Assembly: GCF_016887965.1 (NCBI RefSeq)
Contig: NZ_JAFDVD010000013.1
Span: forward strand, 1-64,000
Origin: Phycicoccus sonneratiae
GTDB taxonomy: Bacteria; Actinomycetota; Actinomycetes; Actinomycetales; Dermatophilaceae
Direction of reading: 5' to 3'
DNA length: 64,000 bases
The translations under genes and the position numbers were made by a program. Below, piece after piece: positions 2,126 to 43,397 of the stretch (position 1 is its first letter; each line of letters starts with the position of its first letter). The notes under the pieces are model-generated. The model was not told the DNA's origin, did not search any database, and saw nothing but the letters and a program-made list of their open reading frames with translations.

Positions 2126-2177
2126 GCCGGGCCGCGGCCTCGCGTCGTCGTCCCGGCGGAGTATCCGGGCGTGCACC

Positions 2178-2197: not shown

Positions 2198-2280
2198 CCT
2201 TCCCGACCTCGTGGGGAGAGACCCGCCGACACGCGGACGGTGAGCGGACGTGCCCCCACAAAGCCGGGAGAAGCGCGGGG

Positions 2281-2325
2281 ACAGGTCGGTGACGGGGGCG
2301 GGGCACAGGTCAGGGACGGGGGCGG
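2281..2325. repeat. Imperfect 24-bp direct repeat at the GH4 3' end
   Basis: Two 21-base copies (2281-2301 and 2305-2325) beginning ACAGGTC and ending GACGGGGGCGG differ at two positions and are 24 bases apart. The stop codon of the GH4 gene (2310-2312) lies inside the second copy. It looks like a small tandem duplication of the gene end; no function is evident. Confidence 0.6.
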
Positions 2326-8839: not shown

Positions 8840-8876
8840 GGCAGGGGAAAACCGTTCCGCGACAGGGAAGAGGTCG

Positions 8877-27346: not shown

Positions 27347-28654
27347 CTACCGTCCGGCGCCGTCCCCCGGGGCCTCCCCGGGCCAGGGGCGCGCGGCGAC
27401 GACGGGCTCGAGCACCGCGCTCGCCTCGGGGGTCGCGAACCACCGCCGCGGCGAGGCGTCGAGGGCGTGGGCCAGCGCGGCCATCACCATCGACTGGTCG
27501 AGCGAGAGGTACCGGCCGGCCGTCCGGCCGGAGCGCAGCCCGACCGAGTCGACGAAGCCGCCGGCGCCGTGGCAGCCGATGTCCTCGAACCGGGCCAGGC
27601 AGGCCGCGGCCTCCTCGGGCTCGTGCAGCAGGGCGAGGGCCGCCGCGTGCGGGGTCGCGACGGGGTCGCCGTCCTCGGTCGTGCTCGGGTAGCCCTCCGG
27701 CGCGAGCGCGATGCCGGGCACGCCGAACACCGAGTACCCCTCGACCGGGCGGGCACACGGCGAGAAGCCCCAGACGGTCCAGCCCTGCTCGGCCGCGTGC
27801 TCCCGGTGCGACGCCACGGTCGCCGGGTGGGACCTGCCCCAGAACCCGGGAGCCCACTCCTCCTCGGGCACGAAGAGGTCGGGCATCAGCGCCTCGAACA
27901 TCGAGCCGCCCCACGTCGGGACGACGTCACGCCCCCGCCACCGCAGCACGGTCGCCGACATCGCCGCGTAGTGCTCCGCGGGGATGTCGCCACCGGCGAT
28001 CCCGGCGTAGGAGGCGATGCGCGGCTCGCTGTCGAGGTGGTCGTAGTGGTGTGGAGTGTGGTGCACGGGCGCCGCACCGTCGAGGTAGGAGGCGACGACG
28101 GTGGGCTCACCGGGATCGCTCTCCCAGAACCCTCCTCGCAGGCGTCCACCCGGGCCCGGCGGCCCGGCCGACGGGTCGTGGAACGCCCCGAGGTCCATCC
28201 GCCCCCGCAGGGCACCGGCCTGCGCGGCCAGCTCGGGGACGGCCGCCGCGACGACGAGCAGCCCCGCCGCCAGCCAGCCGTTGTCGACCGAGGAGTGGAA
28301 CGGCACGATGCGCCGCCCGCCGTCGGGGTCCTCGCGCAGCACCTCTCCGGTGCCCTCGTCGACCCAGTTGGCGATCGTCCCCGCGTCCGGGTGGTGCTCC
28401 AGCCGCTCGACCGTGGCCAGCGTCCGGGCGCAGCGGTCGCGGCACTCGCCGGCGTCGATGACCCCGACGTCGCGCGCGGCCACCGTGCTCCACAGCAGTC
28501 CACCGATGTTCGTCGGCGACGTGTACCCCGACCGGCTGCTGGGGTCGAGGTCGTCGCGTACCGAGTCGGCGGGCAGGCCGGTGCGCTCGTCGGTCATGGC
28601 GGCGAGCGAGGTCCACGTCTCGCCGGCCCACCGTCGCAGCAGGGCGTCAGGCAC
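27347..28654 (-). CDS. GH144-like (endo-beta-1,2-glucanase-type) glycosidase
   Basis: A 435-residue (alpha/alpha)6-barrel protein of the 'glucoamylase-like' Pfam family that includes GH144 beta-1,2-glucanases. Motifs are SGYTSPTNIGGLLWSTVAA near residues 42-60, PFHSSVDNGWLAAGL near 117-131 and GWTVWGFSPCARPVEGYSVF near 295-314. There is no signal peptide, so it should act in the cytoplasm on imported oligosaccharides, unlike exported homologues. The start is GTG 28654, with GAGG nine bases upstream, overlapping the LacI gene by eight bases; GTG 28660 is also possible. It is the last gene of the LacI/ABC transcript; the GH94, GH3 and GH35 genes nearby support a beta-1,2-glucan role. Confidence 0.75.
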   Translation of the reverse strand: MPDALLRRWAGETWTSLAAMTDERTGLPADSVRDDLDPSSRSGYTSPTNIGGLLWSTVAARDVGVIDAGECRDRCARTLATVERLEHHPDAGTIANWVDEGTGEVLREDPDGGRRIVPFHSSVDNGWLAAGLLVVAAAVPELAAQAGALRGRMDLGAFHDPSAGPPGPGGRLRGGFWESDPGEPTVVASYLDGAAPVHHTPHHYDHLDSEPRIASYAGIAGGDIPAEHYAAMSATVLRWRGRDVVPTWGGSMFEALMPDLFVPEEEWAPGFWGRSHPATVASHREHAAEQGWTVWGFSPCARPVEGYSVFGVPGIALAPEGYPSTTEDGDPVATPHAAALALLHEPEEAAACLARFEDIGCHGAGGFVDSVGLRSGRTAGRYLSLDQSMVMAALAHALDASPRRWFATPEASAVLEPVVAARPWPGEAPGDGAGR

Positions 28655-29717
28655 CGGCACCCGCCTCGGCGACGGCAGCCGCGGGCGGGGTCGGCAGCGA
28701 CGGACCGTCCCACGGGCAGCCGCACGACCCACGCAGGACGATGCGGGTGGGGATGACGAGCGGCTCGACGTCCTCGGTGCGCCCCTCGATCCGTTCGTGG
28801 AGGCGGATGGCCGCCCACCGGCCGATCGCGCGGGTCGGCTGCTGGGCGGTGGTCAGCCCCGGCCGGACGTAGCGCGAGGTCATGATGTCGTCGAAGCCGG
28901 TGACCGCGAGGTCCTCCGGCACCCGCACCCCGTGCCGCGCGAGCAGCGCCATCACCGACACCGCGAGCTCGTCGTTGGCGCAGAGCAGCCCGTCGACCGG
29001 CTCGGCCGAGGAGAGGACGGCGTCGACGACCTCGGGCGCCGACGCCTCCTCGAGGCGGACGCGGATCGGCGGTGCGGCCTCGAGCAGCCGGCGCCGCCGC
29101 AGGGCGGCCACGAAGCCGGCGTAGCGCTGCCCGACGTCGTGCGAGTCGGCGGTGTCACCGACGAAGACGAGGTGGCGCCGGCCGTGGCCGACGAGGTGGC
29201 TGGTCAGCTCGGCGGCACTGCGCTCGTTCTCGGCGAGCACGGCGTCGCACCCCTGCACCGGGTCGCGGGCCAGCAGCACGGTCGGGGTCGAGCGCGAGAT
29301 CGTGCGCACCACCGCGTCGTCGACCGTGTCGTTCGCGATGACGACCCCGTCGATCCGCTGGAGCAGCCCGCGCAGCGACTCCTCGAGCGGCACTGGGCCT
29401 CCGGCGAGCAGCACGACGACCGACTGCCCGTACTGGGCCGCGGTCGCCTCGAACCCGCTGAGCAGCTCGGAGTAGTAGGGCCCGACGAGGCCGGGCAGGA
29501 CGAGGCCGTGGGTCTGGTGCCGCGGCACCTCGACCGGACGTGACGAGCGCAGCGGCACGTAGTCGAGCTCCTCGACCGCGCGCAGCACCTTGCGGCGGGT
29601 CATCGGCGAGGCCGGAGTGCTGCCCTGGAGCACCCGGGAGACGGTCGCGATGGACACCCCGGCGCGCGCCGCCACGGTGTAGATCGTCACCGGCCGGTCG
29701 TCGTCGTCCTGCGGCAC
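28647..29717 (-). CDS. LacI-family transcriptional repressor
   Basis: A 356-residue regulator. The LacI helix-turn-helix is at about residues 9-55 (VTIYTVAARAGVSIATVSRV, then hinge region to LDYVPLRSS), followed by a periplasmic-binding-protein-type effector domain with DGVVIANDTVDD, DGLLCANDELAVSVMALL and LAVTGFDDIMTSRYVRPGLT. GTG 29717 is chosen because AAGGAGG lies eight bases upstream; the open frame runs further to 29810 but that part is not conserved-looking. It lies 89 bases after the transporter ATPase gene and overlaps the GH144-like gene, so it probably represses the whole locus, perhaps sensing a sophoro-oligosaccharide or glucose derivative. Confidence 0.92.
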   Translation of the reverse strand: MPQDDDDRPVTIYTVAARAGVSIATVSRVLQGSTPASPMTRRKVLRAVEELDYVPLRSSRPVEVPRHQTHGLVLPGLVGPYYSELLSGFEATAAQYGQSVVVLLAGGPVPLEESLRGLLQRIDGVVIANDTVDDAVVRTISRSTPTVLLARDPVQGCDAVLAENERSAAELTSHLVGHGRRHLVFVGDTADSHDVGQRYAGFVAALRRRRLLEAAPPIRVRLEEASAPEVVDAVLSSAEPVDGLLCANDELAVSVMALLARHGVRVPEDLAVTGFDDIMTSRYVRPGLTTAQQPTRAIGRWAAIRLHERIEGRTEDVEPLVIPTRIVLRGSCGCPWDGPSLPTPPAAAVAEAGAGA

Positions 29718-29806
29718 CTCGGGGCCTCCTTCCGCCGGGGACCACCCTGCCGGGAGGAGGGGCCGAACGGAAGCGGAGGGACGCGACGGCGCCGCGGCGA
29801 GGACGG

Positions 29807-31696
29807 TCACCCGAACGGGTTCGGGACGGCGTCGAGCAGCCGGCGCGTGTACTCGTCGCGCGGCGAGCGGATGACGTCGAGGGTCGGGCCGCGCTCCACG
29901 ACCCGCCCGTCGTTGAGGACGAGCACCTCGTCGGAGAGCATCCGGGCGCTCAGCAGGTCGTGGGTGATGTAGAGGATGCCCATGTCGTGCTCGCGCACGA
30001 GCGACCCGAGGAGCTCGAGGATCTCGGCGCGGATCGAGACATCCAGGCTCGAGATCGGCTCGTCGGCGATGACGATCTCCGGCTCGGCCGCGAGCGCCCG
30101 GGCGATGACGACCCGCTGGCGCTGCCCGCCGGAGAGCTCGTGCGGGTAGCGGTCGACGAAGCGCTCGGTGGGGGTGAGGGCGACGGTCTCGAGCAGCTCG
30201 CGCACCCGGTCGCGCAGCGCCCGGCCGGAGAGGCCGTGGTGGTTGACGAGCGGTCGCTCGAGCGCCTGCCCGATGCGCTTCGCGGGGTTGAGCGAGGAGT
30301 ACGGGTCCTGGAAGACCATCTGCACGTGCTTGCGGTAGCCGCGCAGCGCCCGGCCGCGGAAGCCGGCGACCTCCTGCTCGCCGTCCGGACCGTGGAAGAC
30401 GATCCGGCCGGTCGACGGCTTGTCGACGCCGGTGATCAGCCGGGCGAGCGTCGTCTTGCCGCTGCCGCTCTGGCCGACGAGCGCGGTCACCTCGCCGCGG
30501 CGCAGCTCGAAGGAGACGTCGTCGACGGCGACGGTGCGCTCGACCTTCAGGCCGCGGCGCCGCTCGTACGTCTTCCCGACGGAGTCGACGGAGAGCAGGG
30601 CCGGGCGGGTGAGCGCCTCGGTCGACTCGGCCGCGGTCTTGACGAACTCGGGGCCGGCGAAGCGGCGGGTGGGCTCACCGACGTCGGCGGCCGCGAGCCC
30701 GTCGACCTCGCCCCCGCGCTGCACGCGGGCGACGTGGCAGGCGACGTCCCCACCCGCGAGCGGCGCGAACGCGGGGGTCACGCTCTCGCACAGCGAGATC
30801 CGCTCCGGGCAGCGCGCGACGAACGGGCAGCCCGTGACGTCCTTGGTCAGGTCCGGCAGCCGGCCCGGCACGTACGTGATGCGCACGGTCTCCGCGCGGG
30901 GGTCGCTGTAGGAGCCGAGCAGACCCTTCGTGTACGGGTGCATCGGGTCGCGCAGCAGCGACGCGGCGTCGTTCTCCTCGACGATCCGCCCCGCGTACAT
31001 CACGAGGATCCGGTCGGACAGGTCGAGCACGGTGCCGATGTCGTGGCTGATGAAGAGGACCGCGAAGCCCTTCTCCCGCTGCAGCCGGCGGATGTTCTCG
31101 AGGATCGAGTGCTGCACGACGACGTCGAGCCCGGTCGTCGGCTCGTCGAGGAGGACGACCTTGGGCTCGAGGGCCAGGGCGAGCGCGAGGTTGACCCGCT
31201 GCTTCATCCCCCCGGAGAGCTCGTGCGGGAAGGCGCGGATGAACCGGTGGTCGATCATCACCATGTCGAACAGCTCGCGAACCCGCTCGGTGACGGCGTC
31301 GCCGCGCAGCCCAGAGTGCTCCTCGATGACGTCGCGGAACTGGGCCTCGACGCGGATCACCGGGTTGAGCGCGTTCATGCTGCTCTGGAACACCGTGGAG
31401 ACGTCGCGCCAGCGCAGCGGCCGCAGCTCGTCCTCGGACAGGGCGGTGATGTCCGTGCCGTCGAGGCGCACCGAGCCCTCGCTGATCCGGGCCGGCCGGT
31501 CGAGCAGCCGCAGCAGCGCGGTGCCGAGGGTCGTCTTTCCTGACCCGGACTCGCCGATGAGGCCCACGAACTCACCGGGGCGGATCGAGAACGAGACGTC
31601 GGAGACGGCGGTCAGCGACGGGTTGCGCTTCGGCTCGTAGCGCACCGAGAGGCCGTCGACCTCGAGCAGGGCGTCGGGGCTGGTGGCGGTGGTCAT
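29807..31696 (-). CDS. Oligopeptide-type ABC importer ATPase, fused DppD-DppF
   Basis: A 629-residue cytoplasmic protein carrying both ATPase domains of a peptide-type (Opp/Dpp) importer. Domain 1: Walker A GESGSGKTT near 48-56, signature LSGGMKQR, Walker B VVLLDEPTTGLD, then the oligo_HPY tail with CPFVARCPERISLC, whose Cys residues in some homologues bind an iron-sulfur cluster. Domain 2: Walker A GQSGSGKTT near 410-418, signature LSGGQRQR, Walker B IVIADEPISSLD. ATG 31696 is two bases beyond the preceding permease stop (31699). Fused pairs are known but less common than separate D and F genes. Transporters of this type also import cello- and other oligosaccharides. Confidence 0.93.
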   Translation of the reverse strand: MTTATSPDALLEVDGLSVRYEPKRNPSLTAVSDVSFSIRPGEFVGLIGESGSGKTTLGTALLRLLDRPARISEGSVRLDGTDITALSEDELRPLRWRDVSTVFQSSMNALNPVIRVEAQFRDVIEEHSGLRGDAVTERVRELFDMVMIDHRFIRAFPHELSGGMKQRVNLALALALEPKVVLLDEPTTGLDVVVQHSILENIRRLQREKGFAVLFISHDIGTVLDLSDRILVMYAGRIVEENDAASLLRDPMHPYTKGLLGSYSDPRAETVRITYVPGRLPDLTKDVTGCPFVARCPERISLCESVTPAFAPLAGGDVACHVARVQRGGEVDGLAAADVGEPTRRFAGPEFVKTAAESTEALTRPALLSVDSVGKTYERRRGLKVERTVAVDDVSFELRRGEVTALVGQSGSGKTTLARLITGVDKPSTGRIVFHGPDGEQEVAGFRGRALRGYRKHVQMVFQDPYSSLNPAKRIGQALERPLVNHHGLSGRALRDRVRELLETVALTPTERFVDRYPHELSGGQRQRVVIARALAAEPEIVIADEPISSLDVSIRAEILELLGSLVREHDMGILYITHDLLSARMLSDEVLVLNDGRVVERGPTLDVIRSPRDEYTRRLLDAVPNPFG

Positions 31697-31698
31697 CG

Positions 31699-32622
31699 TC
31701 AGTCCTCCCGCAGGTGGGGGTTGCTCAGCAGGTCGACACCGAAGTTCACGAAGGTCATCGCGGTGATGAGGATGCCGAGGACGAGACCGGGCACGAACAC
31801 CCAGATCCACAGGCCCTGCGCGATCGCGCCCTGCGCGTTGGCCTGGTAGAGCATCGTGCCCCACGAGACCGAGCCGGAGTCGCCGAGACCGAGGATCGCG
31901 AGGCCGGCCTCGGCACCGATCGCGCCGGTCGCGGCGCCGACGAAGCCGGCCGCGACGAGCGAGGTCATGTTCGGCATGATCTCGGCGAAGACGATCCGCA
32001 GCGTGCGGTCGCCGGCGAACTTCGAGGCGGTGACGAAGTCGCGGTTGCGCAGCGTGATGATCTGCGCGCGCTTGGCCCGCGCGGCGCCGGCCCACGACGT
32101 GATCGCGATGACCGCGACGATGAGCGGCACGCCACGGGTGTCGGAGTACGCGACGAGCGTGATGATCAGCGGCAGCACGGGGATGACCAGTGCGACGTTG
32201 GTCAGGAAGGTCAGCGCGTCGTCGAGCAGCGTGCCCTCGGCGTAGCCCGAGACCATCCCGATGACGAGCGCGATGGCCGTCGCGAGGAGCCCGCCGAAGA
32301 GACCGACGAGCAGCGAGATGCGGGTGCCGTGGATCAGCTGGGAGGCGATGTCCTGCCCGTTGGTCGTCGTCCCGAGCCAGTTCTCGGCGCTCGGGCCGGC
32401 GAGCGGGACGAAGTCGGAGTTCGTCGGGTCGTGCGGCGCGATGAGGGGGGCGAAGATCGCCACGAGGACGTAGACGGCGACGATGACGAGGCCGACGCGG
32501 GCCTTGCTGCTGCTCCAGACGACCCTGTACCAGGGGTCCGGTCGGCGGACCTCGACGGTCTCCTCCGGGGCGAGCTGCGGTTCGCCGACGCCCTGCGGGT
32601 CGGTGACGGGGGTGGTCGTCAT
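31699..32622 (-). CDS. Oligopeptide-type ABC permease, DppC/OppC type
   Basis: A 307-residue permease with an N-terminal cytoplasmic tail, a first helix at VGLVIVAVYVLVAIFAPLIA (about 43-62) and about five more. The OppC_N segment is followed by NWLGTTTNGQDIASQLIHGT, a family hallmark, and the coupling loop ASKFAGDRTLRIVFAEIMPN near 201-220. ATG 32622 overlaps the stop of the DppB-type gene by four bases. Confidence 0.93.
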   Translation of the reverse strand: MTTTPVTDPQGVGEPQLAPEETVEVRRPDPWYRVVWSSSKARVGLVIVAVYVLVAIFAPLIAPHDPTNSDFVPLAGPSAENWLGTTTNGQDIASQLIHGTRISLLVGLFGGLLATAIALVIGMVSGYAEGTLLDDALTFLTNVALVIPVLPLIITLVAYSDTRGVPLIVAVIAITSWAGAARAKRAQIITLRNRDFVTASKFAGDRTLRIVFAEIMPNMTSLVAAGFVGAATGAIGAEAGLAILGLGDSGSVSWGTMLYQANAQGAIAQGLWIWVFVPGLVLGILITAMTFVNFGVDLLSNPHLRED

Positions 32623-33608
32623 GACTGCGCCCTCCTCGCGCGCGGGTCCAGCACGCCGTACATGAGGTCGGCGACGAGGTTCGCGAGGAGCACCCCGGCG
32701 GTCGTCAGCAGCATGAGCGTCTGGAGCAGGGGGTAGTCCTTGTTCTCGACGGCCTCGCCCATCAACCGGCCGAGGCCGGGGTAGTCGAAGGCGGTCTCGA
32801 CGAGGATGGCGCCGCCGAGCACGCCGCCGAGGGCGAGCGCGAAGCCGGTGACGCTGGGCAGCAACGCGTTCCGCGCCGCGTACCCGAGGGCGATCCGCCG
32901 GTCGGGCAGCCCCTTGGCCCGGGCGAGGCGGATGTAGTCCTCGCCGAGGTTCATGATCATCGTGTTGCGCATCCCGAGCACCCAGCCGATCGGCGTGACG
33001 ACGAGCAGCGCGAGCGCCGGCAGGAACGAGTGGCTCACGGCCTCCTGGATGAACGGCCCGTTGAACCCGGGCGTCGCGGCTTCGTAGCCGCCGGAGGTCG
33101 GGAACCAGCCGAGCGTGTAGCCGAGCAGGTAGATGAGCAGCAGGGCGATCCAGAACGGCTGGAGGGTGCCGAGGAACGTCGACCCGAGCGTGACGACCGA
33201 GTCGAAGCGGGTGTTGCGCCGCCACGCCGCGTACGCCCCGAGGACGGTACCGACGGCGAAGGACAGCACCTGCGTGACGACGACGAGGACCACCGTCCAC
33301 CAGATCGCCTGGCCGATCACCTCGGTGACGGGGAACGGGTAGTACGTGTAGCTCAGCCCGAAGTTCCCGTGCGCCAGCTCGCCGAGGTAGCCGGTGTACT
33401 GGCTCCACAGCGACCCGTCGGGGGTGCCGAGCATCGCGCGCATGGCCTGCACCTGCGCGGGGTCGAGCTGGGAGTCCTTGCCCGCGAGGCGCTTGACCAT
33501 GATCTCCGCCGGGTCGCCCGGCTGGAGCCGCGGGATGAGGAAGTTCAGCGTGACCACGGCCCAGAGGGTGGCGAGGAAGAACGCGACCTTGCGCGCGAAG
33601 TACCTCAC
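32619..33608 (-). CDS. Oligopeptide-type ABC permease, DppB/OppB type
   Basis: A 329-residue permease. The N terminus MRYFARKVAFFLATLWAVVT with LNFLIPRLQPGDPAE is the classic DppB opening; six membrane segments follow, and the coupling loop reads YIRLARAKGLPDRRIALGYA. It pairs with the DppC-type protein. It starts 28 bases after the binding-protein stop and overlaps the next gene by four bases. Confidence 0.93.
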   Translation of the reverse strand: MRYFARKVAFFLATLWAVVTLNFLIPRLQPGDPAEIMVKRLAGKDSQLDPAQVQAMRAMLGTPDGSLWSQYTGYLGELAHGNFGLSYTYYPFPVTEVIGQAIWWTVVLVVVTQVLSFAVGTVLGAYAAWRRNTRFDSVVTLGSTFLGTLQPFWIALLLIYLLGYTLGWFPTSGGYEAATPGFNGPFIQEAVSHSFLPALALLVVTPIGWVLGMRNTMIMNLGEDYIRLARAKGLPDRRIALGYAARNALLPSVTGFALALGGVLGGAILVETAFDYPGLGRLMGEAVENKDYPLLQTLMLLTTAGVLLANLVADLMYGVLDPRARRAQS

Positions 33609-33636
33609 GACGCACCTCCGGCCGGGTGGCCGGCGC

Positions 33637-35307
33637 TCACTTCGCCGAGGACAACCGGGTGAGCACGAGGAGCCGGTCGTCGGACGGGTTGGCGTAGGGG
33701 TCCTGCTCGCTCGGCCAGCCGACGGCCTTGTCCGTGCGGTACAGGATGCGGGTGGGCGCGTAGATGAGCGGCGTGACGGGGAACTGGGTCATCATCACGT
33801 CGACGAGCTTGCCGACCTCGGTCTTCTGCTCGGCCTGGTCGGTGGCCTTCTCGAGCGCGGCGACGGTGGCGTCGACCTGCGGGTCGGAGAACCGGCCGAC
33901 GTTGCTCCTGACCTCCTTCTCCGTCGGGAACTGCTTCGAGGAGAGCTTGGCCCCGATGTTGCGGGCCAGCTCGCAGCCACCGTGGAGGTACTCGAGCATC
34001 GCGGTGTACTCACCGGTCTTCTTCTGCTGGTCGACCGAGTCGGGGGCCGAGGCGGTGACCTTGGTCTGGACGCCGACCGAGTTCAGGCCCTTGGCGATGA
34101 CGTCGGCGATGGCCTGGTAGTCGATGAAGCCGGCCTGCACCGAGAAGTTCACCGCGAGCGGCGAGCCGTCGGGGTTGGTGCGCTTGCCGTCGGCGCCCTT
34201 GCGGTAGCCCGCGGCGTCGAGCATCTGGTTCGCCTTCGCCACGTCGAAGGGAATGACGGTGTCGGAGTTCGCGACCGAGTCAGGGAGCAGCTTCTGCATC
34301 GACGGCAGCTTGAGGCCGGTCTGGCTCGCGGGCTTCATGATCCCGTAGGTCGCCTTGGTCGACATCGCTTCCTTGTCCATCGCGTAGGACACCGCCTCGC
34401 GGAACTTCGGGTCGTCGAACGGCTTCTGCTTCAGGTTGCCGGTGAGGACGGTCATCCCGTTGGGGGCGAACCAGAAGTGGTTGACCTTCGGGTCGGCCGA
34501 GACGAACGTCTTCTCCGGGTTGGGGATCTCGCCCCAGTAGGCGTCGAGCTCGCCGGAGCGCAGCTTGAGCGCGGCCTGCGACGCGTCGTACTGGCCCTCC
34601 TGGACGATCTTCTGCACCTTGACCTTGTCGGCCTGCCAGTAGTCGGGGCGGCGGTCGAGGACGAGGCGGCGGCCGTTGTAGCTGCCGAGCTCGTACGGCC
34701 CGGTCCCGACTGGCTTCTTGTCGACGTACTTCGTCGGGTCGCCGACCTTCGAGTACACGTGCTCGGGGAGCATCGGCTGCTTGATGATCTCGTCGTACTT
34801 CGCGGCGGCGTTGCCGGAGAACTTCATCGTCACGACGTTGCCCTCGGCCGTGACCGACTCGGCGGGGGCGCCGAAGGTGTCGTTCCAGACACCGGCCTTG
34901 TCCAGGCCGGCGTACTGCTTGCCGAGGTTGAACGTGAAGGCGACGTCCTTCGCGGTGAACGGCTGCCCGTCGCTCCACTTCACACCGTCGCGGATCGTGA
35001 TGGCCAGGGTCTGGTCATCGGTCCAGTCGGCCTTCGTCGCGAGCCACGGCGTCTCCTCGCAGGAGAGACCGTTCTTGATGATCAGCGGCTCGTAGACCCA
35101 GAACCGGGTGAGCGGCTGGGTGGCGTAGGGGTTGAAGTCGCCGAGGCCCCCGGCGGCCCCCGTGACCTCCGCGGGGAAGGTCAGCTGGGCGACCATGCCC
35201 TTGCCGGCGGCTCCTCCGGAACCGCTGTCGGCGCTCCCGGCGCAGGCCGTGAGGGCGAGCGCGGCGACGAGGCCGGTGGCGGCCATGGACATGGTGCGAG
35301 TCAGCAT
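33637..35307 (-). CDS. Extracellular solute-binding lipoprotein, family 5 (oligopeptide/oligosaccharide)
   Basis: A 556-residue binding protein of the SBP_bac_5 family. The lipoprotein signal ends in the lipobox LTAC with C22 lipidated. The body has the family signature region WTDDQTLAITIRDGVKWSDG near 100-119 and AKDVAFTFNLGKQY. Length is normal. The divergent phosphorylase and glucosidase genes suggest its ligand is an oligosaccharide, as for the cellobiose/laminaribiose-binding family 5 proteins of thermophiles, rather than a peptide. It is the first gene of the minus-strand operon; ATG 35307 follows GGAAGG. Confidence 0.92.
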   Translation of the reverse strand: MLTRTMSMAATGLVAALALTACAGSADSGSGGAAGKGMVAQLTFPAEVTGAAGGLGDFNPYATQPLTRFWVYEPLIIKNGLSCEETPWLATKADWTDDQTLAITIRDGVKWSDGQPFTAKDVAFTFNLGKQYAGLDKAGVWNDTFGAPAESVTAEGNVVTMKFSGNAAAKYDEIIKQPMLPEHVYSKVGDPTKYVDKKPVGTGPYELGSYNGRRLVLDRRPDYWQADKVKVQKIVQEGQYDASQAALKLRSGELDAYWGEIPNPEKTFVSADPKVNHFWFAPNGMTVLTGNLKQKPFDDPKFREAVSYAMDKEAMSTKATYGIMKPASQTGLKLPSMQKLLPDSVANSDTVIPFDVAKANQMLDAAGYRKGADGKRTNPDGSPLAVNFSVQAGFIDYQAIADVIAKGLNSVGVQTKVTASAPDSVDQQKKTGEYTAMLEYLHGGCELARNIGAKLSSKQFPTEKEVRSNVGRFSDPQVDATVAALEKATDQAEQKTEVGKLVDVMMTQFPVTPLIYAPTRILYRTDKAVGWPSEQDPYANPSDDRLLVLTRLSSAK

Positions 35308-35340
35308 CGTTGCAGACCTTCCGTGGAGTGGGCTCCGGTC

Positions 35341-35371
35341 AACGTACGACGCCGTAACCGTTGTGTGTCAA
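35341..35371 (-). promoter_or_regulatory. Promoter of the importer operon
   Basis: On the minus strand, TTGACA (35366-35371 in plus numbering) and TACGTT (35341-35346) are 19 bases apart, upstream of ATG 35307. A perfect -35 box is notable in this G+C-rich genome. It is overlapped by the operator palindrome. Confidence 0.55.
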
Positions 35372-35376
35372 CGGTT
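35356..35376. promoter_or_regulatory. Candidate LacI operator between the importer and GH94 operons
   Basis: A perfect 8-bp inverted repeat, AACCGTTG-N5-CAACGGTT, lies in the 168-base divergent promoter region and covers the -35 TTGACA of the importer promoter. It is a natural binding site for the LacI protein encoded in the locus; occupancy would block transcription towards the importer and probably also towards GH94. Confidence 0.6.
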
Positions 35377-35475
35377 TCTGACCATGTAACTACTTTCATG
35401 GATGGCCCTTGCTTACATCTGTTTTCACGGTCACGAAGCCTTCCTGCGCACCGCCCGGACTGGTAGGCAGGAGCC

Positions 35476-38400
35476 GTGCACGAGCAGCAGACCGCCCACC
35501 TCCCCGCCCCCCGACACGGCCTCGACGGCCCCTGCGGGCTGGCCGCGGAGCTGACCACCAACGGGTCGCTCCGGCGCTTCGAGGCGTTCGGGCTGAGCCT
35601 GCTGCTCTATCCCGCGACCGAGCTCGAACCGGGGCCCGCTGGCCTGTTCCTCCGGGTCCTCGACGGCGACCGCGCCCGCTGGACCCCGCTGCTCGGCCCG
35701 GCCTCCGGCGGGGTCGTGCACGGCGGCGACGGTGTCGTCGGTCTGCGCGGCACCTGGGAGGGGCTCGACTGGTCGGTGGCCCTGCGCGCCGGCACCTCGT
35801 CCGGCGACGACCACGTGGCGTGGCGCTGGGAGGTCGAGGTCGAGAACGCCACCGGCCGAGGGCTCGACGTCGACGTCGTCCTCACCCACGACCCCGCCCT
35901 CGCCACTCCCGGCGCGGTGCGCACCAACGAGTACTACGTCGCGCAGTATCTCGACGTCTCACCGCTCGAGGGACCGCACGGCACCGCCCTCGCCGTGCGC
36001 CAGAACATGCCCGGGCCGTTCGTCCCGTGGCTGGCCATCGGGTCGCTGCGGGCCGGCCGCGGCTGGGCCACCGACGCGCTGCAGCTGACCACCCGCACGC
36101 CGGCGGGCACACGGTGGGACGGCCTCGACGCCGCCGCGCTGCCCTCGACGCGCCACCAGCACGAGCACACCCTCGTCGTGCTCGGCGACGAGCCGGTGCA
36201 CCTCGCGGCGGGGGCGACGCACCGCACCGGCTTCGTCGGCGTCGCGGTCGCCGACCACCCGGCGGCCACCGGCGACGACGACGCGCAGTGGCTCCGCCGG
36301 GCCGAGGCCGAGACCGCGTCCCGCCCCGGCCGGCCAGATCCCGGCGGCGCGGCCGTGTCCGCCACGGCGTTCAGCCGCCCCTCGGCGCCCGCCCGCCCGC
36401 TGACCTCCGACGAGCTCGCGCGGCTCGGCATCGCGCCCGATGGCTCGGTCGAGACGGCGGCCGACGGGTCACCCTGGTCGTGGTCGACCCCGGCCGGCCA
36501 GGTCGTCCTGCCGGCCAAGGACCTCACCGTCCTCCGCCCGCACGGCACCGTCCTGCGCACGGGCTCCTCCCTCGTCCCCGACGACGGCTCCCTCACGACG
36601 ACGGTCTGGATGGACGGCACCTTCCTCTCGCAGGTCACCCGGGGCCACGTCGGGCGTGACGCCCTGCTCACCGGGCGCCGCTCGTACCTCGGGCTGCTCG
36701 AGGCGCACGGCGCCCGCCTCCTCGTCCGCGGCGAGCACGGCTGGGAGCGGCTCGGCACCCCGTCGGCCTGGCGCGTCGACCTCGACCGCTGCACGTGGTG
36801 GTACGCCCTCGGCGACACCGTCCTCGAGGTGACGACGACCGCGCCGGAGGGCCGCCACGAGCTCGTCGTCGCCGTGAGGACCCTCGCCGGCCGGCCGCTC
36901 GACCTGCTGCTCGCCCTCGCGGGCACCGGGGCGCCGGTCGAGCCCACCGGGCCGCGCGGCCTGACCCTCGGCACCGACGAGCCCTGGGTGCTCACGTGGG
37001 AGGGCGCCGACGCCACGGTCGGTGACGACGCCCCGCTGCACGACGACCGCGTCGGCCGCGACCCCGCGTGGGTGACCCTCGAGGTCCCCGCCGCCGCGGA
37101 CTGGAGCATCCGGCTCGGCCGGCCTGCCCCGACACCGCCGGTGCCGGCCGAGGCACCGGAACCGTTCTGGGACAGGGTCGCCCGCGCCCTCGACGTCTCG
37201 GCCCCGACCTCCCCCACCGGCGGCTCGGTGCGGCACGTCGCCGACGCCCTGCCCTGGTTCGCGCACGACGCCGTCGTCCACTACCTGGCGCCGCGCGGCC
37301 TCGAGCAGTACAGCGGCGGGGCGTGGGGAACCCGTGACGTCTGCCAGGGACCGGTCGGGCTGCTGACCGCCCTCGACCGGCAGGACGTGGTCCGCGAGGT
37401 GCTCGGGCGCGTCTTCCGCGGGCAGAACGCGCGTGGTGACTGGCCGCAGGCCTTCGAGTTCCTCGAGCCGCTGCCGACCGCCGGCCAGCAGGACTCGCAC
37501 GGCGACGTCGTGTTCTGGCCGCTGCTCGCGACCGGCGAGCACCTCCTCGCGAGCGGGGACCCCGCCCTCCTCGCCGACGAGGTGCCGTTCGTCGGCGACA
37601 CCGGTCTCACCGACCCGGCGCCGGTGCTCGACCACCTCGCCCGGGCCGTCGAGCGCGTCGAGGCGTGCACCGTCGACGGCAGCCCGCTCCCGGCGTACGG
37701 TCACGGCGACTGGAACGACTCGCTCCAGCCCGCCGACCCGCGGCTCGCCCGGCGCCTGGTGTCCGTGTGGACCGCCGTCCTGCAGACCCAGTCGCTGCGC
37801 ACCCTCGCGCACGGCCTCCGGGCCGTCGGCGCCACCGGCGCCGCGGCCGACCTCGCCGAGCGGGCCGCCGCGCTCGCCGACGCCACCGAGGACGCCATCC
37901 ACCGCGACCTCATCGTCGACGACGTCATGCCCGGGTACCTGCTGCTCCACGAGGACGGCACCACCGAGCCGCTGGTCCACCCCCGCGACACCCGCACCGG
38001 CCTGACCCTCGGCATCCTCCCGTGGATCCACGCGGTGAGCGCCGACCTCCTCACCCCCGAGCAGGCCGGGCAGCACCTCGCGCTCGTCGAGGAGCACCTG
38101 CTCGGCCCGGACGGGGCGCGCCTGTTCGACCGGCCGGTGGCCTACGCCGGCGGGCCGATGAGCGTCTTCCAGCGCGCCGAGGCCAGCACCTTCTGGGGCC
38201 GCGAGATCGGGCTGATGTACGTCCACGCGCACCTGCGGTATGCCGAGGCCCTGGCCCGCGTCGGGCGCGGGGCCGAGCTCGTGCGGGCCCTCGCGCTCGC
38301 CACCCCGGGCGGCGCCACCGAGCTCGTGCCCTCCGCCCGGCCGCGCCAGACCAGCTGCTACTACTCCTCGTCCGACGGCGCCTTCACCGACCGGCTCGAC

Positions 38401-38784
38401 GCCCAGGAGCGCTACCCGGAGCTGATGGCCGGCCGCGTCCCGCTGGAGGGGGGCTGGCGCGTGTACTCCTCGGGTCCCGGGCTCTTCCTCCGGCTCGTCG
38501 TCGAGTGCCTCCTCGGCATCCGGCGGCGCGGCGACGTCGTCGAGGTCGACCCCGTGCTCGACCCCGCGCTCGGCGAGCTGCACGCCCGGGTCCCCCTGGA
38601 CGGCCGCGTCCTCGACGTCGTCGTCCGGCCCGGCGGCACCGGGAACGGCGTCACGTCGGTCACCGCCGACGGCACGCCCCTCACGACCACCCCGCTCGAC
38701 AACCCCTACCGGCGCGGTGGCGTGGCGGTGCGGCTGGACGACCTCCGGCGCACCGCCACGAGCCTCGTCGTGGAGACCTTCTGA
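35476..38784 (+). CDS. GH94 phosphorylase, probably 1,2-beta-oligoglucan phosphorylase type
   Basis: A 1102-residue cytoplasmic enzyme of family GH94, which splits beta-glucosides with inorganic phosphate to yield alpha-glucose 1-phosphate. The catalytic barrel has YGHGDWNDSL with the GDWND motif at residues 744-748 carrying the general-acid Asp, and PRQTSCYYSSSDGAF near 955. Large N-terminal beta-sandwich regions precede it. At about 1,100 residues it is far longer than cellobiose phosphorylases (about 800) and matches sophorose/1,2-beta-oligoglucan phosphorylases. GTG 35476 has GGCAGGAG upstream. It starts a plus-strand operon with GH3 (one base gap) and GH35. Specificity is inferred from length and context. 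Confidence 0.85.
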   Translation: MHEQQTAHLPAPRHGLDGPCGLAAELTTNGSLRRFEAFGLSLLLYPATELEPGPAGLFLRVLDGDRARWTPLLGPASGGVVHGGDGVVGLRGTWEGLDWSVALRAGTSSGDDHVAWRWEVEVENATGRGLDVDVVLTHDPALATPGAVRTNEYYVAQYLDVSPLEGPHGTALAVRQNMPGPFVPWLAIGSLRAGRGWATDALQLTTRTPAGTRWDGLDAAALPSTRHQHEHTLVVLGDEPVHLAAGATHRTGFVGVAVADHPAATGDDDAQWLRRAEAETASRPGRPDPGGAAVSATAFSRPSAPARPLTSDELARLGIAPDGSVETAADGSPWSWSTPAGQVVLPAKDLTVLRPHGTVLRTGSSLVPDDGSLTTTVWMDGTFLSQVTRGHVGRDALLTGRRSYLGLLEAHGARLLVRGEHGWERLGTPSAWRVDLDRCTWWYALGDTVLEVTTTAPEGRHELVVAVRTLAGRPLDLLLALAGTGAPVEPTGPRGLTLGTDEPWVLTWEGADATVGDDAPLHDDRVGRDPAWVTLEVPAAADWSIRLGRPAPTPPVPAEAPEPFWDRVARALDVSAPTSPTGGSVRHVADALPWFAHDAVVHYLAPRGLEQYSGGAWGTRDVCQGPVGLLTALDRQDVVREVLGRVFRGQNARGDWPQAFEFLEPLPTAGQQDSHGDVVFWPLLATGEHLLASGDPALLADEVPFVGDTGLTDPAPVLDHLARAVERVEACTVDGSPLPAYGHGDWNDSLQPADPRLARRLVSVWTAVLQTQSLRTLAHGLRAVGATGAAADLAERAAALADATEDAIHRDLIVDDVMPGYLLLHEDGTTEPLVHPRDTRTGLTLGILPWIHAVSADLLTPEQAGQHLALVEEHLLGPDGARLFDRPVAYAGGPMSVFQRAEASTFWGREIGLMYVHAHLRYAEALARVGRGAELVRALALATPGGATELVPSARPRQTSCYYSSSDGAFTDRLDAQERYPELMAGRVPLEGGWRVYSSGPGLFLRLVVECLLGIRRRGDVVEVDPVLDPALGELHARVPLDGRVLDVVVRPGGTGNGVTSVTADGTPLTTTPLDNPYRRGGVAVRLDDLRRTATSLVVETF

Positions 38785-38785
38785 G

Positions 38786-40969
38786 ATGACGCGCACCGAC
38801 CGTCCGTGGCTCGACCCTGCCCTCGGCCCCGAGGAGCGGGTCGAGGCCCTGCTCGCCGTGATGACCCTCGAGGAGAAGGTCGGCCAGACCCACCAGGTCG
38901 CGAACATCACGCCGGAGGACGAGGACGCCATCCGCGCCGGTGCCGTGTCGTCGAGCCTCTACGCGTCCGGCGCGACCGCCGGCAACGAGCGCGACGAGGG
39001 GATGCTCGTCGCGAACATCGATGCGGCACAGCGGCTCGCCGTCGAGGAGTCGCGCCTCGGCGTCCCGCTGCTCTTCGGCCGCGACGTCATCCACGGCCAC
39101 CGGACCGTCTTCCCGATCCCCCTCGGTCTCGCGGCCGCGTTCGACGACGGGCTCGCCGAGGAGACCGCGCGGGTGGCCGCCGAGGAGGCGACGCTCGAGG
39201 GGGTCGCCTGGACCTTCGCGCCGATGATGGACGTGTCCGAGGAGCCGCGCTGGGGGCGCGTCGCCGAGTCGCTCGGTGAGCAGCCGGTGCTCGCTGGCCG
39301 GCTGGCCGCGGGGATGGTGCGCGGCTTCCAGGGCGAGGACCCGTCCGACCGCCGCCGTCTCGCCGCCTGCGCCAAGCACTTCGTCGGCTACGGGCTGTCC
39401 ACCGGCGGACGCGACTACAACACCGTGTCGGTCGGCGAGAACACGCTGCGGAACCTGCACCTGCGGCCGTTCCGCGACGCCGTGCGCGCCGGCGTCACCA
39501 CCGTCATGGCCGCGTTCAACGACGTCGACGGCACCCCGATGCACGCGCACCGACGGCTGCTGCGCGAGGTGCTCAAGGACGAGTGGGGCTTCGACGGGGT
39601 CGTCGTCGGCGACTGGAACGGCGTCGGCCAGCTCGTGCGCCAGGGCGTCGCCGGCGACCTGCGCGAGGCCGCCCGGCTGGCCATCGAGGCGGGGGTCGAC
39701 CTCGACATGTGCGCCGGGGCCTACACGGCGCACCTCGCGGACCTCGTGCGCTCGGGGGAGGTCGACGAGGCCCTGCTCGACGACGCCGTGCGCCGCGTGC
39801 TCCGGCTCAAGGTGCGCCTCGGGCTCTTCGAGCACCCGTACGCCGGTGACCTCGAGGACGACCCGGCGCCCACGGCCGCGACGCGGTCCCTGGCCCGGCG
39901 GGCGGCGCAGGCGGCGCACGTGCTCGTGAAGAACGACGGGGTGCTGCCGCTCGACCCCGCGGGGGAGGACCGCGTCCTGCTCACCGGAGGCTTCGTCGAC
40001 GAGGGCGACGCCCTGCTCGGCACGTGGGTGCTCGACGGGCGCGGCGAGGAGGTCGTCACGCCCGCCGACGCCCTGCGCGAGCGGCTGGGCGAGGAGCCCG
40101 GGGTGCAGTTCGGCCGGCGCCTCGACGTGCTCGACGGGCGCTTCCCCGACCAGGTGCTCGAGCTGGCCCGGCGCGCCTCGACCGCCGTGATGCTCCTCGG
40201 TGAGCACCGCGGCCGCTCGGGCGAGGACCGCTGCGTCACCGACATCGGCCTGCCGCCCGGCCAGCTCGACGTGCTCCGGCACGTGGCGGCCCTCGGCACA
40301 CCGGTCGTCGCCGTCGTCTACACCGGCCGGCCGCTCGACCTCACCGAGGTGCTCGACCTCGCGGCGGCCGTCGTCGTCGTGTGGCACCCCGGTGTCGAGG
40401 CGGGGTCGGCGCTCACCGACGTGCTCGTCGGCGACGTCGAGCCGCACGGGCGGCTGCCGATGACCTTCCCGCTCTCGGTCGGTCACGTGCCGACGAGCAC
40501 GCACCAGCGCCCGACCGGACGGCCCATCCCCGTCGAACGCGACCGCTTCGAGGGCCGGTACGTCGACGCGCTGACCCACAGCCGCCTGCCGTTCGGGTTC
40601 GGGTTGTCGTACACGAGCGTCGAGTACGGGGAGCCGTCGGTGGAACCGGAGTCCGTGCCGGTCGAGGACGGGACGGCGACCGTGCGGGTCACGTTGTCCA
40701 ACAGCGGTTCCCGGCCGTGCCGAGAGGTCGTCCAGCTGTACGCGCACGACCCGGTCGCCGACGTCACGCGTCCGGAGGTCGAGCTCGTCACGTGGCAGAC
40801 CGTCGACCTCGCGCCCGGTGAGAGCCGGGAGGTCGCCCTCGCGGTGTCCACGCGCGACTTCGCGTACTCGGGCCGGGACCTCACCGAGCGGGTCGACCGC
40901 GGCGACATCGTGCTGCTCGCCGGGCCGGACTCGGCCACGCTGCGCGCCACGACCCTCACCCTGACCTGA
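38786..40969 (+). CDS. GH3 beta-glucosidase
   Basis: A 727-residue GH3 glycosidase with no signal peptide. The N-terminal barrel contains LLFGRDVIHGHRTVFP, the KHFVGYG motif and the nucleophile D276 in GVVVGDWNG; the C-terminal alpha/beta sandwich includes LLGEHRGRSGEDR and RLPMTFP; a fibronectin-III-like domain ends the protein (PSVEPESVPVEDGTATVRVT onward). It releases glucose from the non-reducing end of beta-glucosides. The ATG is one base after the GH94 stop. Together with GH94, a role on sophorose and short beta-1,2-glucans is likely. Confidence 0.92.
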   Translation: MTRTDRPWLDPALGPEERVEALLAVMTLEEKVGQTHQVANITPEDEDAIRAGAVSSSLYASGATAGNERDEGMLVANIDAAQRLAVEESRLGVPLLFGRDVIHGHRTVFPIPLGLAAAFDDGLAEETARVAAEEATLEGVAWTFAPMMDVSEEPRWGRVAESLGEQPVLAGRLAAGMVRGFQGEDPSDRRRLAACAKHFVGYGLSTGGRDYNTVSVGENTLRNLHLRPFRDAVRAGVTTVMAAFNDVDGTPMHAHRRLLREVLKDEWGFDGVVVGDWNGVGQLVRQGVAGDLREAARLAIEAGVDLDMCAGAYTAHLADLVRSGEVDEALLDDAVRRVLRLKVRLGLFEHPYAGDLEDDPAPTAATRSLARRAAQAAHVLVKNDGVLPLDPAGEDRVLLTGGFVDEGDALLGTWVLDGRGEEVVTPADALRERLGEEPGVQFGRRLDVLDGRFPDQVLELARRASTAVMLLGEHRGRSGEDRCVTDIGLPPGQLDVLRHVAALGTPVVAVVYTGRPLDLTEVLDLAAAVVVVWHPGVEAGSALTDVLVGDVEPHGRLPMTFPLSVGHVPTSTHQRPTGRPIPVERDRFEGRYVDALTHSRLPFGFGLSYTSVEYGEPSVEPESVPVEDGTATVRVTLSNSGSRPCREVVQLYAHDPVADVTRPEVELVTWQTVDLAPGESREVALAVSTRDFAYSGRDLTERVDRGDIVLLAGPDSATLRATTLTLT

Positions 40970-41003
40970 CCGACCACCTCCCACCACCCCAGGAGCGATC
41001 CTC

Positions 41004-43397
41004 GTGATCGAGCTGTCCCGCAAGCAGATCCACATCGACGGCGTGCCCCGAGTCGTCATGGCCGGGGAGGTGCATTACTTCCGCGTCGCGCGCGAGGAGT
41101 GGGAGCAGCGCCTCGACCTCGTCGTCGAGGCCGGGCTGACGGCCGTCGCCTCGTACATCCCGTGGATCTACCACGAGCTGCCGGACGGGACCATCGACGT
41201 CGAGGGTCGCACCCGGCCCGAGCGCGACGTCGCGGCGTTCGTCGACCTGTGTCGTGACCGCGGGCTGCTGTTCATCGCCCGGCCCGGGCCGTTCGTCATG
41301 GCCGAGCTGAAGAACGAGGGCATCCCGCACCGCGTGTACCGCGAGCACCCCGAGGTGGTGCCGACGGGGTGGGACGGGGCGCCGACGACGTCGAGCACCG
41401 TCGACTACCTCGCACCGGCCTTCCTCGAGGAGACCGCCCGCTGGTACGCGGCGATCATGCCGCTGCTGGCCCCGCGGCTGCAGCCGCGCGGAGGGAACGT
41501 CGTCGCCGTCCAGCTCGACAACGAGGTGGGGATGCTCGCCTGGGTCACCAACACGCCCGACCTCACCGACGACCTCGTCGACCACCTCGGACGCTGGGTG
41601 CGCGAACGGTACGCGGGTGCGGGGCCGTTTCCGGTCGAGCCCGGGGGGCCCGGCTGGGCCGAGGTCGTCCGCAGCCCCGAGGAGGCGTGGGCCGGCCCGC
41701 TGCGCCGCGACCTCGGTGAGTTCATGCGGGTGCGCTTCGCCGACTACGTCGCCGCCCTGCGGACCATGGCCGAGGAGCAGGGCATCGTCGACGTCCCGTT
41801 CCTCGTGAACATCCACGGCACCGAGGGTGGCAGCGGCCAGCCGTTCCCGATCGGCATCAGCCAGCTCGTGCGCACGTACTCCGGTGTGCCGGGCATGGTC
41901 TCGGGCAGCGACCACTACATGGGCGAGGCGACGCTCTCGACGATGTCGGACCTCTACGTCATCAACGCGTTCATGGACGCGGTGCACGACGAGGACCAGC
42001 CGCTCACGTCGCTGGAGTTCGAGGCGGGGTCGGGCGACTACGGCGCCGGGGCCGAGATGCAGTACGACCCGTCGACGACCGAGCTGAAGACCCGGCTCTG
42101 CCTCGCGCAGGGCAACCGGCTCGTCAACTACTACCTCTTCGCCGGCGGCATCAACCCGATGCTCGACGAGCGCGTCGACGACGGCAACGAGCGGCTGTCC
42201 TTCACCGGCGAGCGCCACGGCACCGCGGCCCCCGTGGGTCCGGAGGGGCAGCGCGGGTTCGCCTACGAGGCGACCGCGCGGTGCGTGCGGGCGGTGGCGG
42301 CCAACGAGCCGTGGCTCGCGGTGATGGACGAGGAGCACGACGACGTCGAGCTCGGGCTGGTGCTCGACGCCTACGCCACCGAGTACCACCACCCCGGGTC
42401 GGACCTGATGACCGACGCGGTGACCGACCTCGCCGCCCACCGAGGGGCGGGGCAGCGGCGGGCGCTGGTGCGGTCGCTGCTCATGGCGGGGTACCGGTTC
42501 GGGGCGGTGCACCTCGAGGAGCGTTCTCCCCGAGCGGGTTCGGTGCTCGTGCTCGGTGCGGGACGGTACCTGGCGCGGGCCGTGCAGGAGCGCGTGCTGG
42601 CGCACGCGGAGGCCGGGGGAGGGGTGCTGCTCCTCGGGCCGGCGCCGGTGCTCGACCTCGACGGGACGCCGTGCACGGTGCTCGTCGACGCGCTGGGGGT
42701 CGTGCCGGGCGAGGTCGTGCGCGACACCGGGCACTACTACCCGTCGGTCGTGGCGCAGGGCTGGGCCGCGCCGTGGCCGGAGATGCGGGTCGGCTGGCGC
42801 CAGGAGCTGACGCCGTCGCGGGGTGACGCGGTGCTCACCGACGTCTACGGGGCGGTGTGCGGCGTCGACGTGCCGGTGGGGGCGGGGCGCGTGGTGCTGC
42901 TCTCGGCCGAGCTGCCGTCCAGCCGCGAGCTGTTCACCCGCGCCGTCGAGCGGCTGGGGGCGACGCCCGGGGTGTCCACCCGGACGCCGTGGCCCGGGGT
43001 GGTCACGACGACGACCGCGTCGGAGGACGGGCAGCGGGCGCTGCACGTCATCAACCTGTCGGGGGCCGCGATGCCCGTGGAGGTGACGGTGGACGGACAC
43101 CCGCTGACCGACGCGGCCCTACGGGTGCCGGCGCGGTCGGGGTACGTCCTGCCGCTCGGGCTCGACGCGGGTGGAGTGCGGGTCGTCGGGGGGACCGGCG
43201 AGGTGGCCGGGGTGGAGGAGGGCGCGATCCGCTTCCGGCCGCTGCTCGGCGTGGGTGAGGGGCCGGGGTACGTCGACCTGGCTTCCGGGACGCCCGTGCT
43301 GCCGGACGAGGACTACGTCGTGGCGGCCGGGCCGGACGGGTGCGTGCGGGTGACGCCGCTCGACCCCGGTGGGTCACTGGTGTTGCGGCTGGGGTGA
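41004..43397 (+). CDS. GH35 glycoside hydrolase (beta-galactosidase family or beta-1,2-glucan-active)
   Basis: A 797-residue GH35 protein without a signal peptide. The barrel starts with IHIDGVPRVVMAGEVHYFRV; the acid/base Glu is E174 in VQLDNEVGM, and the nucleophile is probably E338 in SLEFEAGSG, matching the usual TEFWxGW region but without the Trp. Beta-rich C-terminal domains follow from about residue 470. GH35 is mostly beta-galactosidases, but I recall a member acting on beta-1,2-glucosidic bonds as a glucosyltransferase, which would fit this operon better. GTG 41004 follows AGGAG. Confidence 0.85.
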   Translation: MIELSRKQIHIDGVPRVVMAGEVHYFRVAREEWEQRLDLVVEAGLTAVASYIPWIYHELPDGTIDVEGRTRPERDVAAFVDLCRDRGLLFIARPGPFVMAELKNEGIPHRVYREHPEVVPTGWDGAPTTSSTVDYLAPAFLEETARWYAAIMPLLAPRLQPRGGNVVAVQLDNEVGMLAWVTNTPDLTDDLVDHLGRWVRERYAGAGPFPVEPGGPGWAEVVRSPEEAWAGPLRRDLGEFMRVRFADYVAALRTMAEEQGIVDVPFLVNIHGTEGGSGQPFPIGISQLVRTYSGVPGMVSGSDHYMGEATLSTMSDLYVINAFMDAVHDEDQPLTSLEFEAGSGDYGAGAEMQYDPSTTELKTRLCLAQGNRLVNYYLFAGGINPMLDERVDDGNERLSFTGERHGTAAPVGPEGQRGFAYEATARCVRAVAANEPWLAVMDEEHDDVELGLVLDAYATEYHHPGSDLMTDAVTDLAAHRGAGQRRALVRSLLMAGYRFGAVHLEERSPRAGSVLVLGAGRYLARAVQERVLAHAEAGGGVLLLGPAPVLDLDGTPCTVLVDALGVVPGEVVRDTGHYYPSVVAQGWAAPWPEMRVGWRQELTPSRGDAVLTDVYGAVCGVDVPVGAGRVVLLSAELPSSRELFTRAVERLGATPGVSTRTPWPGVVTTTTASEDGQRALHVINLSGAAMPVEVTVDGHPLTDAALRVPARSGYVLPLGLDAGGVRVVGGTGEVAGVEEGAIRFRPLLGVGEGPGYVDLASGTPVLPDEDYVVAAGPDGCVRVTPLDPGGSLVLRLG

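Follow-up and report, generated by a model that had tools for sequence, protein, structure and literature searches.

Does the soil-type actinobacterium Phycicoccus sonneratiae import beta-1,2-glucan pieces and cut them inside the cell? The question is raised by the first 64,000 nucleotides of its contig NZ_JAFDVD010000013.1 (hereafter the window; contig C30 of a 4.1-Mb assembly), where a divergent cluster at 27347-43397 brings together an oligopeptide (Opp)-type importer, a LacI-family regulator and genes for glucan-active enzymes. Judged from the sequence, the locus would be an inducible beta-1,2-glucan uptake-and-degradation module whose endo-acting cut is made inside the cell, a reading to which we give a probability of about 0.72. 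The nine genes and their strands, as proposed in the initial annotation of this DNA, were confirmed by Pfam matches. From the middle outward, the minus arm holds the family-5 binding lipoprotein, OppB, OppC, the fused ATPase, LacI and the glucanase, and the plus arm the 1,2-beta-oligoglucan phosphorylase (SOGP), GH3 and GH35. Five starts were corrected by reading the sequence: GTG 28654 for the glucanase, which overlaps the LacI stop, GTG 29690 for LacI, and ATG 31696, 32622 and 38786 for the ATPase, OppC and GH3, respectively. The features are the following:

27347..28654, minus strand: glucanase, GH193-like (Pfam Glycoamylase PF10091, 1.4e-8)
28647..29690, minus strand: LacI-family regulator (Pfam LacI; predicted GTG start)
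29807..31696, minus strand: fused DppD-DppF-type ATPase (two ABC_tran stretches and one oligo_HPY in one chain)
31699..32622, minus strand: OppC-type permease (BPD_transp_1)
32619..33608, minus strand: OppB-type permease (BPD_transp_1)
33637..35307, minus strand: family-5 solute-binding lipoprotein, nearest to a sugar-binding group (SBP_bac_5, 3.5e-62)
35383..35400, no strand: candidate LacI operator CATGTAACTACTTTCATG, 1 mismatch to CATGWAAGTACTTWCATG, the palindrome found in related loci
35476..38784, plus strand: SOGP (GH94), 1102 aa (SOGP_N PF21958, 2.8e-48; SOGP_2nd PF21250, 4.2e-20)
38786..40969, plus strand: GH3 beta-glucosidase, BglX-like (Pfam GH3 N and C; no signal peptide seen)
41004..43397, plus strand: GH35 protein nearest to the beta-1,2-glucosyltransferase IaSGT (Pfam GH35, 1.7e-34)

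The Pfam GH94 catalytic model matched the SOGP at 19.2 bits, below its cut-off of 27. The best PDB match was 5h3z (2.3e-140, 473 bits), which we take to be LpSOGP, as the residues also fit, and the next were a cyclic glucan synthase (39 bits) and lactose and cellobiose phosphorylases (33 bits). In the alignment, where the LpSOGP chain numbering is that of the paper plus one, 13 out of 13 checked LpSOGP residues were identical in the window protein, catalytic Asp760 among them; they belong to subsites -1, +1 and +2, the acid and the phosphate site of LpSOGP (PMC5309861; published work is cited here and below from excerpts). By these comparisons the 1102-aa GH94 protein is an SOGP, and the initial annotation was right in preferring this enzyme to a cellobiose phosphorylase. 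The GH3 protein had its PDB matches in 9urf (1.2e-143), 5xxl (3.9e-143; presumably BT_3567) and Lin1840 (3.5e-122), other GH3 entries matching alike.

A profile of 19 binding proteins had its 14 best PDB sequences (173-218 bits) in a Thermotoga/Vibrio group, among whose entry names are 'Chitin Oligosaccharide Binding Protein' as well as 'Mannoside ABC transport system, sugar-binding protein'. Further members of this group are labelled 'peptide' or 'oligopeptide' in the database and presumably have sugar ligands. Nickel binders reached at most 114 bits and dipeptide binders at most 79 bits; the family-5 protein groups with sugar binders in these searches, and a peptide importer was rejected on the same scores. 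The initial annotation had named two findings that would speak against it, a GH94 grouping with cellobiose or chitobiose phosphorylases and a binding protein for peptides; since the GH94 protein is an SOGP and the binding protein falls among sugar binders, neither is true by sequence. The binding protein and both permeases (BPD_transp_1 at 5.1e-39 and 3.6e-17) were above no NCBIfam cut-off. Entries 4jsd and 2o7i of the matched group are, we assume, the Thermotoga maritima protein tmCBP. As tmCBP binds beta-glucan, in a site for a disaccharide and a cavity that takes three further rings (PMC3850815), an Opp-type importer for beta-glucan pieces has a precedent; a family-5 importer for the beta-1,2 linkage was not seen among the papers listed by searches of the open-licence PMC literature. 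This precedent, and the recurrence in actinobacterial SOGP loci described below, correct the earlier opinion that a peptide-type importer is unusual here.

The glucanase had been called GH144-like, which did not stand. Its predicted model (predicted local distance difference test, pLDDT, 92.9) shows the SGL-clan fold with a general acid Glu and a candidate base Asp (model, Foldseek). The profile matched cyclic glucan synthases at 153 and 133 bits and EeSGL1 at 75 bits, whereas GH144 CpSGL was far off with 31 bits over one stretch, and GH144 membership was therefore rejected. Membership of GH189, the nearer family, was rejected as well because its nucleophile and its helical insert are missing. 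The position of nucleophile E1442 is Pro299 in the window protein and Pro in 32/32 rows (residues 353, 397 and 439 of 8wy1 are spaced (44, 86) like E1356, E1400 and E1442, and E439 aligns with Pro299), and before the acid, from one aligned stretch to the other, there are about 110 residues fewer than in NdvB (180-230 versus 1116-1275). The acid, Glu210, and the candidate base, Asp124, do not vary across the 32 aligned glucanase rows. They are 86 residues apart, as are D160 and E246 of SkSGL from GH193, a family placed near GH189 and mostly from Gram-positive bacteria, while the published acid-base spacings are 69 in CpSGL, 72 in EeSGL1 and 66 in PgSGL3 (PMC12102758); as loops vary, this match is a weak sign. 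The window glucanase is GH193-like by residues, the tree described below having lacked SkSGL.

The cluster enzymes have no signal-like N-terminus, in agreement with the initial annotation. The greatest 13-residue hydropathy mean within the first 45 residues was 0.19 for the glucanase, 0.98 for SOGP, 1.02 for GH3 and 0.94 for GH35, as compared with 1.97 for the binding lipoprotein and 2.19 for the second glucanase of the same genome. Here and below, hydropathy or inspection by eye was the only basis for calling signals.

That a GH35 enzyme splits the oligosaccharides had also been proposed. A GH35 protein is indeed present; as to splitting, its best PDB matches are Ignavibacterium beta-1,2-glucosyltransferase entries (7vkw, 1.3e-46, 162 bits), with a margin that is modest because the next beta-galactosidase reaches 147 bits. 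The nearest NCBIfam model, exo-beta-D-glucosaminidase, gave 159 of 1500 bits, far under its cut-off. All seven residues Y52, E102, N175, E176, N275, E343 and Y378 of IaSGT are kept in the window protein; they are well conserved among IaSGT homologs, Asn175 being Asp in GlmA (PMC8861115).

Uniqueness of the arrangement was considered and rejected. In the 80 loci surveyed out of 191 SOGP relatives, a family-5 binding protein, OppB and OppC lie beside the SOGP in 18, all from actinobacteria; GH35 occurs in 19 and a glucanase in 13. The recurrence of the importer beside SOGP speaks against a grouping by chance. With the exception of L051, which is rearranged, the 18 loci have binding protein and SOGP in divergent orientation (17 loci, among them L080, which ends at a contig edge). 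A search of the family yielded 20 regions, 13 of them already in the set and counted once; the seven new loci are six of the Opp type (L164, L173, L174, L176, L178, L182) and one with a CUT1-type importer (L180). Together with the window, the 18 loci and the six family loci therefore make 25 Opp loci. SOGP is present in 27 of the 186 genomes of the family and in 2 of the 12 of the genus. Around SOGP relatives of about 40% identity (L023 and others, from Verrucomicrobia, Methylococcus, Deltaproteobacteria and further groups) few or no other window genes were recognised. The non-actinobacterial SOGP loci L058, L063, L074 and L078 hold CUT1-like genes, and the CUT1-type locus L020 has a sulfatase-like open frame (by reading; 8431-10296, minus strand) between LacI and SOGP.

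PF10091 matches at two places in the P. sonneratiae genome. The second place, on contig C17, belongs to another system (LacI, CUT1-type binding protein, MalF, MalG, glucanase and GH3, in this order), whose glucanase begins with a twin-arginine (TAT) signal. Both systems adjoin in L174, where the CUT1 importer goes with a TAT-signal glucanase and the Opp importer with a signal-less one. A search of the class covered 296 genomes, 37 of them with a glucanase match, and regions from 19 of the 36 others were taken in addition to the C17 locus. Beside a close Opp importer the glucanase is signal-less in 8/8 readable loci (the window, L003, L006, L016, L017, L022, L164 and L174), and beside CUT1 importers it bears a signal in 7/7 loci of the SOGP set and 14/14 of the class set, plus L174 and L180; these counts are not independent, because the signal-less form is one clade, in which the six such glucanases of the tree fall (100/99). 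The glucanases of five class loci in which no importer was recognised in the vicinity bear a signal too. The signal-less glucanases are also without a loop (alignment columns 256-292) that has 26-37 residues, mostly 27-30, in the 26 others, and a profile alignment showed a matching gap in the synthase domains. Alignment and tree left out L007 (broken) and L131 (short) and kept the partial L020; L164 and L174 are not in the tree. The L007 glucanase (about 1738-2726, minus strand), beside an Opp importer, looks broken and has no readable start, and relatives have intact copies.

Regulation was approached through the region between the two arms. The 18-bp palindrome CATGWAAGTACTTWCATG (at most 3 mismatches) occurs once each in 20 of the 25 Opp loci, always between the binding protein and SOGP, a count that is descriptive since the motif was derived from the same loci. 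As exceptions, L013 has a site with 4 mismatches and L008 a stray one with 4; the palindrome is missing in L014, L051, L080 and L182. At up to 3 mismatches it was found in none of 24 CUT1-type or exceptional loci (in five of the 24 at 4 mismatches) and in none of four others, and 21 mononucleotide shuffles of seven loci gave no site at 4 mismatches. In the whole P. sonneratiae genome a wider form of CATGWAAGTACTTWCATG occurs at one place, with 0 mismatches. A different palindrome, TGWAAGCGCTTWCA (at most 1 mismatch), was present in 15 of the 26 loci of CUT1 or exceptional type, that on C17 among them, and, among seven Opp loci scanned, in L051 and, with 1 mismatch, in L013. The half-sites of both palindromes have TGWAAG in common, so cross-talk may occur. 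The perfect inverted repeat AACCGTTG-TGTGT-CAACGGTT (35356-35376), which adjoins the candidate operator within the divergent promoter, was rejected as operator, as a scan of related promoters did not find it.

In the proposed mechanism, the family-5 lipoprotein would capture beta-1,2-gluco-oligosaccharides, probably longer than the sophoro-oligosaccharides (Sop) Sop3-5 that are the reported ligands of the CUT1-type protein Lin1841, and OppBC with the fused ATPase would import them. The substrates are probably beta-1,2-gluco-oligosaccharides, likelier the longer linear ones and perhaps rings. The cytosolic GH193-like enzyme, with acid Glu210 and candidate base Asp124, could then cut the chain or open the ring, and SOGP would phosphorolyse pieces of at least three glucoses to glucose 1-phosphate and finally sophorose. 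GH3 would hydrolyse sophorose, and GH35 may move or remove an end glucose. LacI, bound at 35383-35400, would silence both arms until intracellular sophoro-oligosaccharide releases it. The whole would complement the genome's other, CUT1-type system, in which the glucanase has a signal for export. The central proposal of the initial annotation, intracellular catabolism of beta-1,2-glucan (sophoro-oligosaccharides), finds backing in the 473-bit SOGP match and in the binding protein's place within the sugar group.

Besides the modest GH35 margin and the descriptive palindrome count, several observations weigh against this mechanism. The inner glucanase adjoins the importer in only 9 of the 25 Opp loci (L007 broken, L080 unreadable) and is therefore not its obligatory partner; 15 of the 24 readable Opp loci have no adjoining glucanase. 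Signal and loop were perhaps lost in a single event. A strict pairing of the Opp importer with a signal-less glucanase was rejected because of L126 (3617-12135), where an Opp-type importer, with a binding protein 33% identical, stands beside a Sec-signal glucanase and LacI; this locus holds TGTAAGCGCATACA sites and shows a third arrangement. A glucanase was found in 25 of the 26 genomes with SOGP loci that were searched, and 24 of the 26 have one that is about 45-53% identical, besides or instead of the signal-less one. In the 30 loci read for loop and signal (L193, a broken copy, being unreadable), 22/22 of these glucanases have the loop and a signal-like N-terminus and 7/7 signal-less ones have neither. 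With a signal-bearing glucanase in nearly all genomes, cutting outside could supply the importer. A reversed control pattern of the palindrome also had one site within 3 mismatches in the P. sonneratiae genome. In GH35, Arg349 of IaSGT (subsite +1) is Gly344 and Leu100 is Met; both positions vary among IaSGT homologs, and Arg349 is missing from many (PMC8861115). The predicted model of the binding protein (pLDDT 60.1) was too poor to inspect. Finally, the ATPase is above the NCBIfam cut-offs of dipeptide and NikD/NikE/Cnt nickel ATPase models.

The strongest rival explanation, which comes near to that of the initial annotation, is an importer for short Sop2-5 only, made outside by a signal-bearing GH193 enzyme, the inner glucanase being a minor helper or a relic. 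Both the Opp loci without an adjoining glucanase and the 22 second glucanases with loop and signal-like N-terminus fit it, as does SkSGL of GH193, whose end products are Sop4-8 (PMC12102758). However, it leaves a second importer without clear purpose, and likewise an endo-enzyme whose catalytic residues are complete in 6/6 aligned copies. We consider it a serious contender, somewhat short of even odds; these overlap those of the preferred reading, as only substrate length differs, and the two need not sum to one.

Rings of beta-1,2-glucan as the substrate are a rather unlikely option. In their favor, an inner endo-enzyme would be most needed for a ring: what an exo-acting beta-glucosidase had left over, judged to be cyclic, was degraded by the endo-glucanase CpSGL (PMC10834661); in addition, the signal-less glucanases are without the loop present in the 26 other glucanases, and the cyclisation domains of the synthases have a matching gap in the profile alignment. 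Nevertheless, rings with a degree of polymerization of at least 17 may exceed what a family-5 protein can accommodate, tmCBP having space for two plus three rings (PMC3850815), most Opp loci are without an inner glucanase, and a signal-bearing glucanase is encoded at another place in almost every genome searched. Very little speaks for synthesis or storage, with SOGP working in the direction of cytosolic beta-1,2-glucan, to be trimmed by the other enzymes: SOGP is capable of synthesis and stands alone without importer in L002, but inducible import is suggested by the binding-protein importer, by LacI and by the palindrome that lies between the arms, and the lone SOGP of L002, which occupies the same genomic site as the window locus, may be a remnant. 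A peptide or nickel importer placed by accident beside a sugar operon is hardly credible, since, despite the ATPase matches, the binding protein and permeases exceed no such cut-off, the former matches the sugar group, and importer and SOGP come together in 18 loci, mostly with the palindrome between them.

Within the preferred reading of import and internal cutting, a further step may be imagined, although we think it improbable. A GH193 enzyme that lost signal and loop would have become a cytosolic chain-cutter or ring-opener coupled to phosphorolysis. Actinobacteria would thereby take up long or cyclic beta-1,2-glucans (e.g., rhizobial or agrobacterial) intact, and the same cells would have kept the separate CUT1 route with outside cutting.

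The module lies at what seems to be an insertion site, bordered by two genes whose names are presumptive:

26476..27336, minus strand: Fpg-like gene, left border of the insertion (translation read)
43673..44824, minus strand: App1-like phosphatase gene, right border of the insertion

These two genes adjoin, 13-445 bp apart, in 7 of the 12 genomes of the genus. Between them P. sonneratiae has the full locus, and genome G445 (Phycicoccus endophyticus, the contig of L002) only an SOGP, without importer. Genome G443 has a lone GH35 at this site (L226, 15640-18030), 73% identical to that of the window, and no SOGP match. G452 ends at a contig edge and G451 is without an App1 match; in L225 (G449:C1:3260469-3260801) the App1-like match is split and contains TAG. 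We read this as the decay of an older full locus to single genes, the alternative being separate gains.

Beta-1,2-glucans come from plant-associated and other bacteria, and the form in which others take them up is poorly known. A cell that has two systems, whose glucanases differ in bearing a signal and whose palindromes are related without being the same, makes this question directly testable. Concrete proteins also come with it: an enzyme resembling GH193 that would act in the cytosol, a GH35 of the IaSGT type from an actinobacterium, and a binding protein of family 5 whose expected ligands have the 1,2 linkage. New elements, which do not show in the window by itself, are the second, CUT1-type system with its TAT-signal glucanase, the importer-matched location of the glucanases, the palindrome between the arms and the Fpg-App1 insertion site.

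Each part has known counterparts, described here as far as the published excerpts go. Listeria innocua lin1839-1841 likewise joins SOGP with GH3 and with an importer whose binding protein takes beta-1,2-gluco-oligosaccharides, but this binding protein is of another type (Lin1841, which we take to be of family 1), and neither GH35 nor a cytosolic GH193 is named in the excerpt. The IALB_1185 cluster of Ignavibacterium album shares a signal-less GH35 beta-1,2-glucosyltransferase, GH94, glucanases and an ABC importer; in contrast, its glucanases are GH144, one of them predicted outside or at the membrane, its binding protein is homologous to Lin1841, and the presence of a glucosidase is described inconsistently. 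Streptomyces griseus SGR_2422-2427, also Gram-positive, has a GH193 glucanase, a Sop importer and a beta-1,2-glucosidase; its importer is Lin1841-like, however, and its glucosidase GH1, SOGP and GH35 are not named in the excerpt, and it rather resembles the C17 locus. Finally, tmCBP of Thermotoga maritima, from the same PDB match group, binds beta-glucan oligosaccharides like the protein proposed here, but these are beta-1,4 and beta-1,3 ligands, and where the Thermotoga and Vibrio chains have GWTDW or GWTDF, the window protein has GFIDY. The parts of the P. sonneratiae locus are thus of known kinds, and their combination is unusual.

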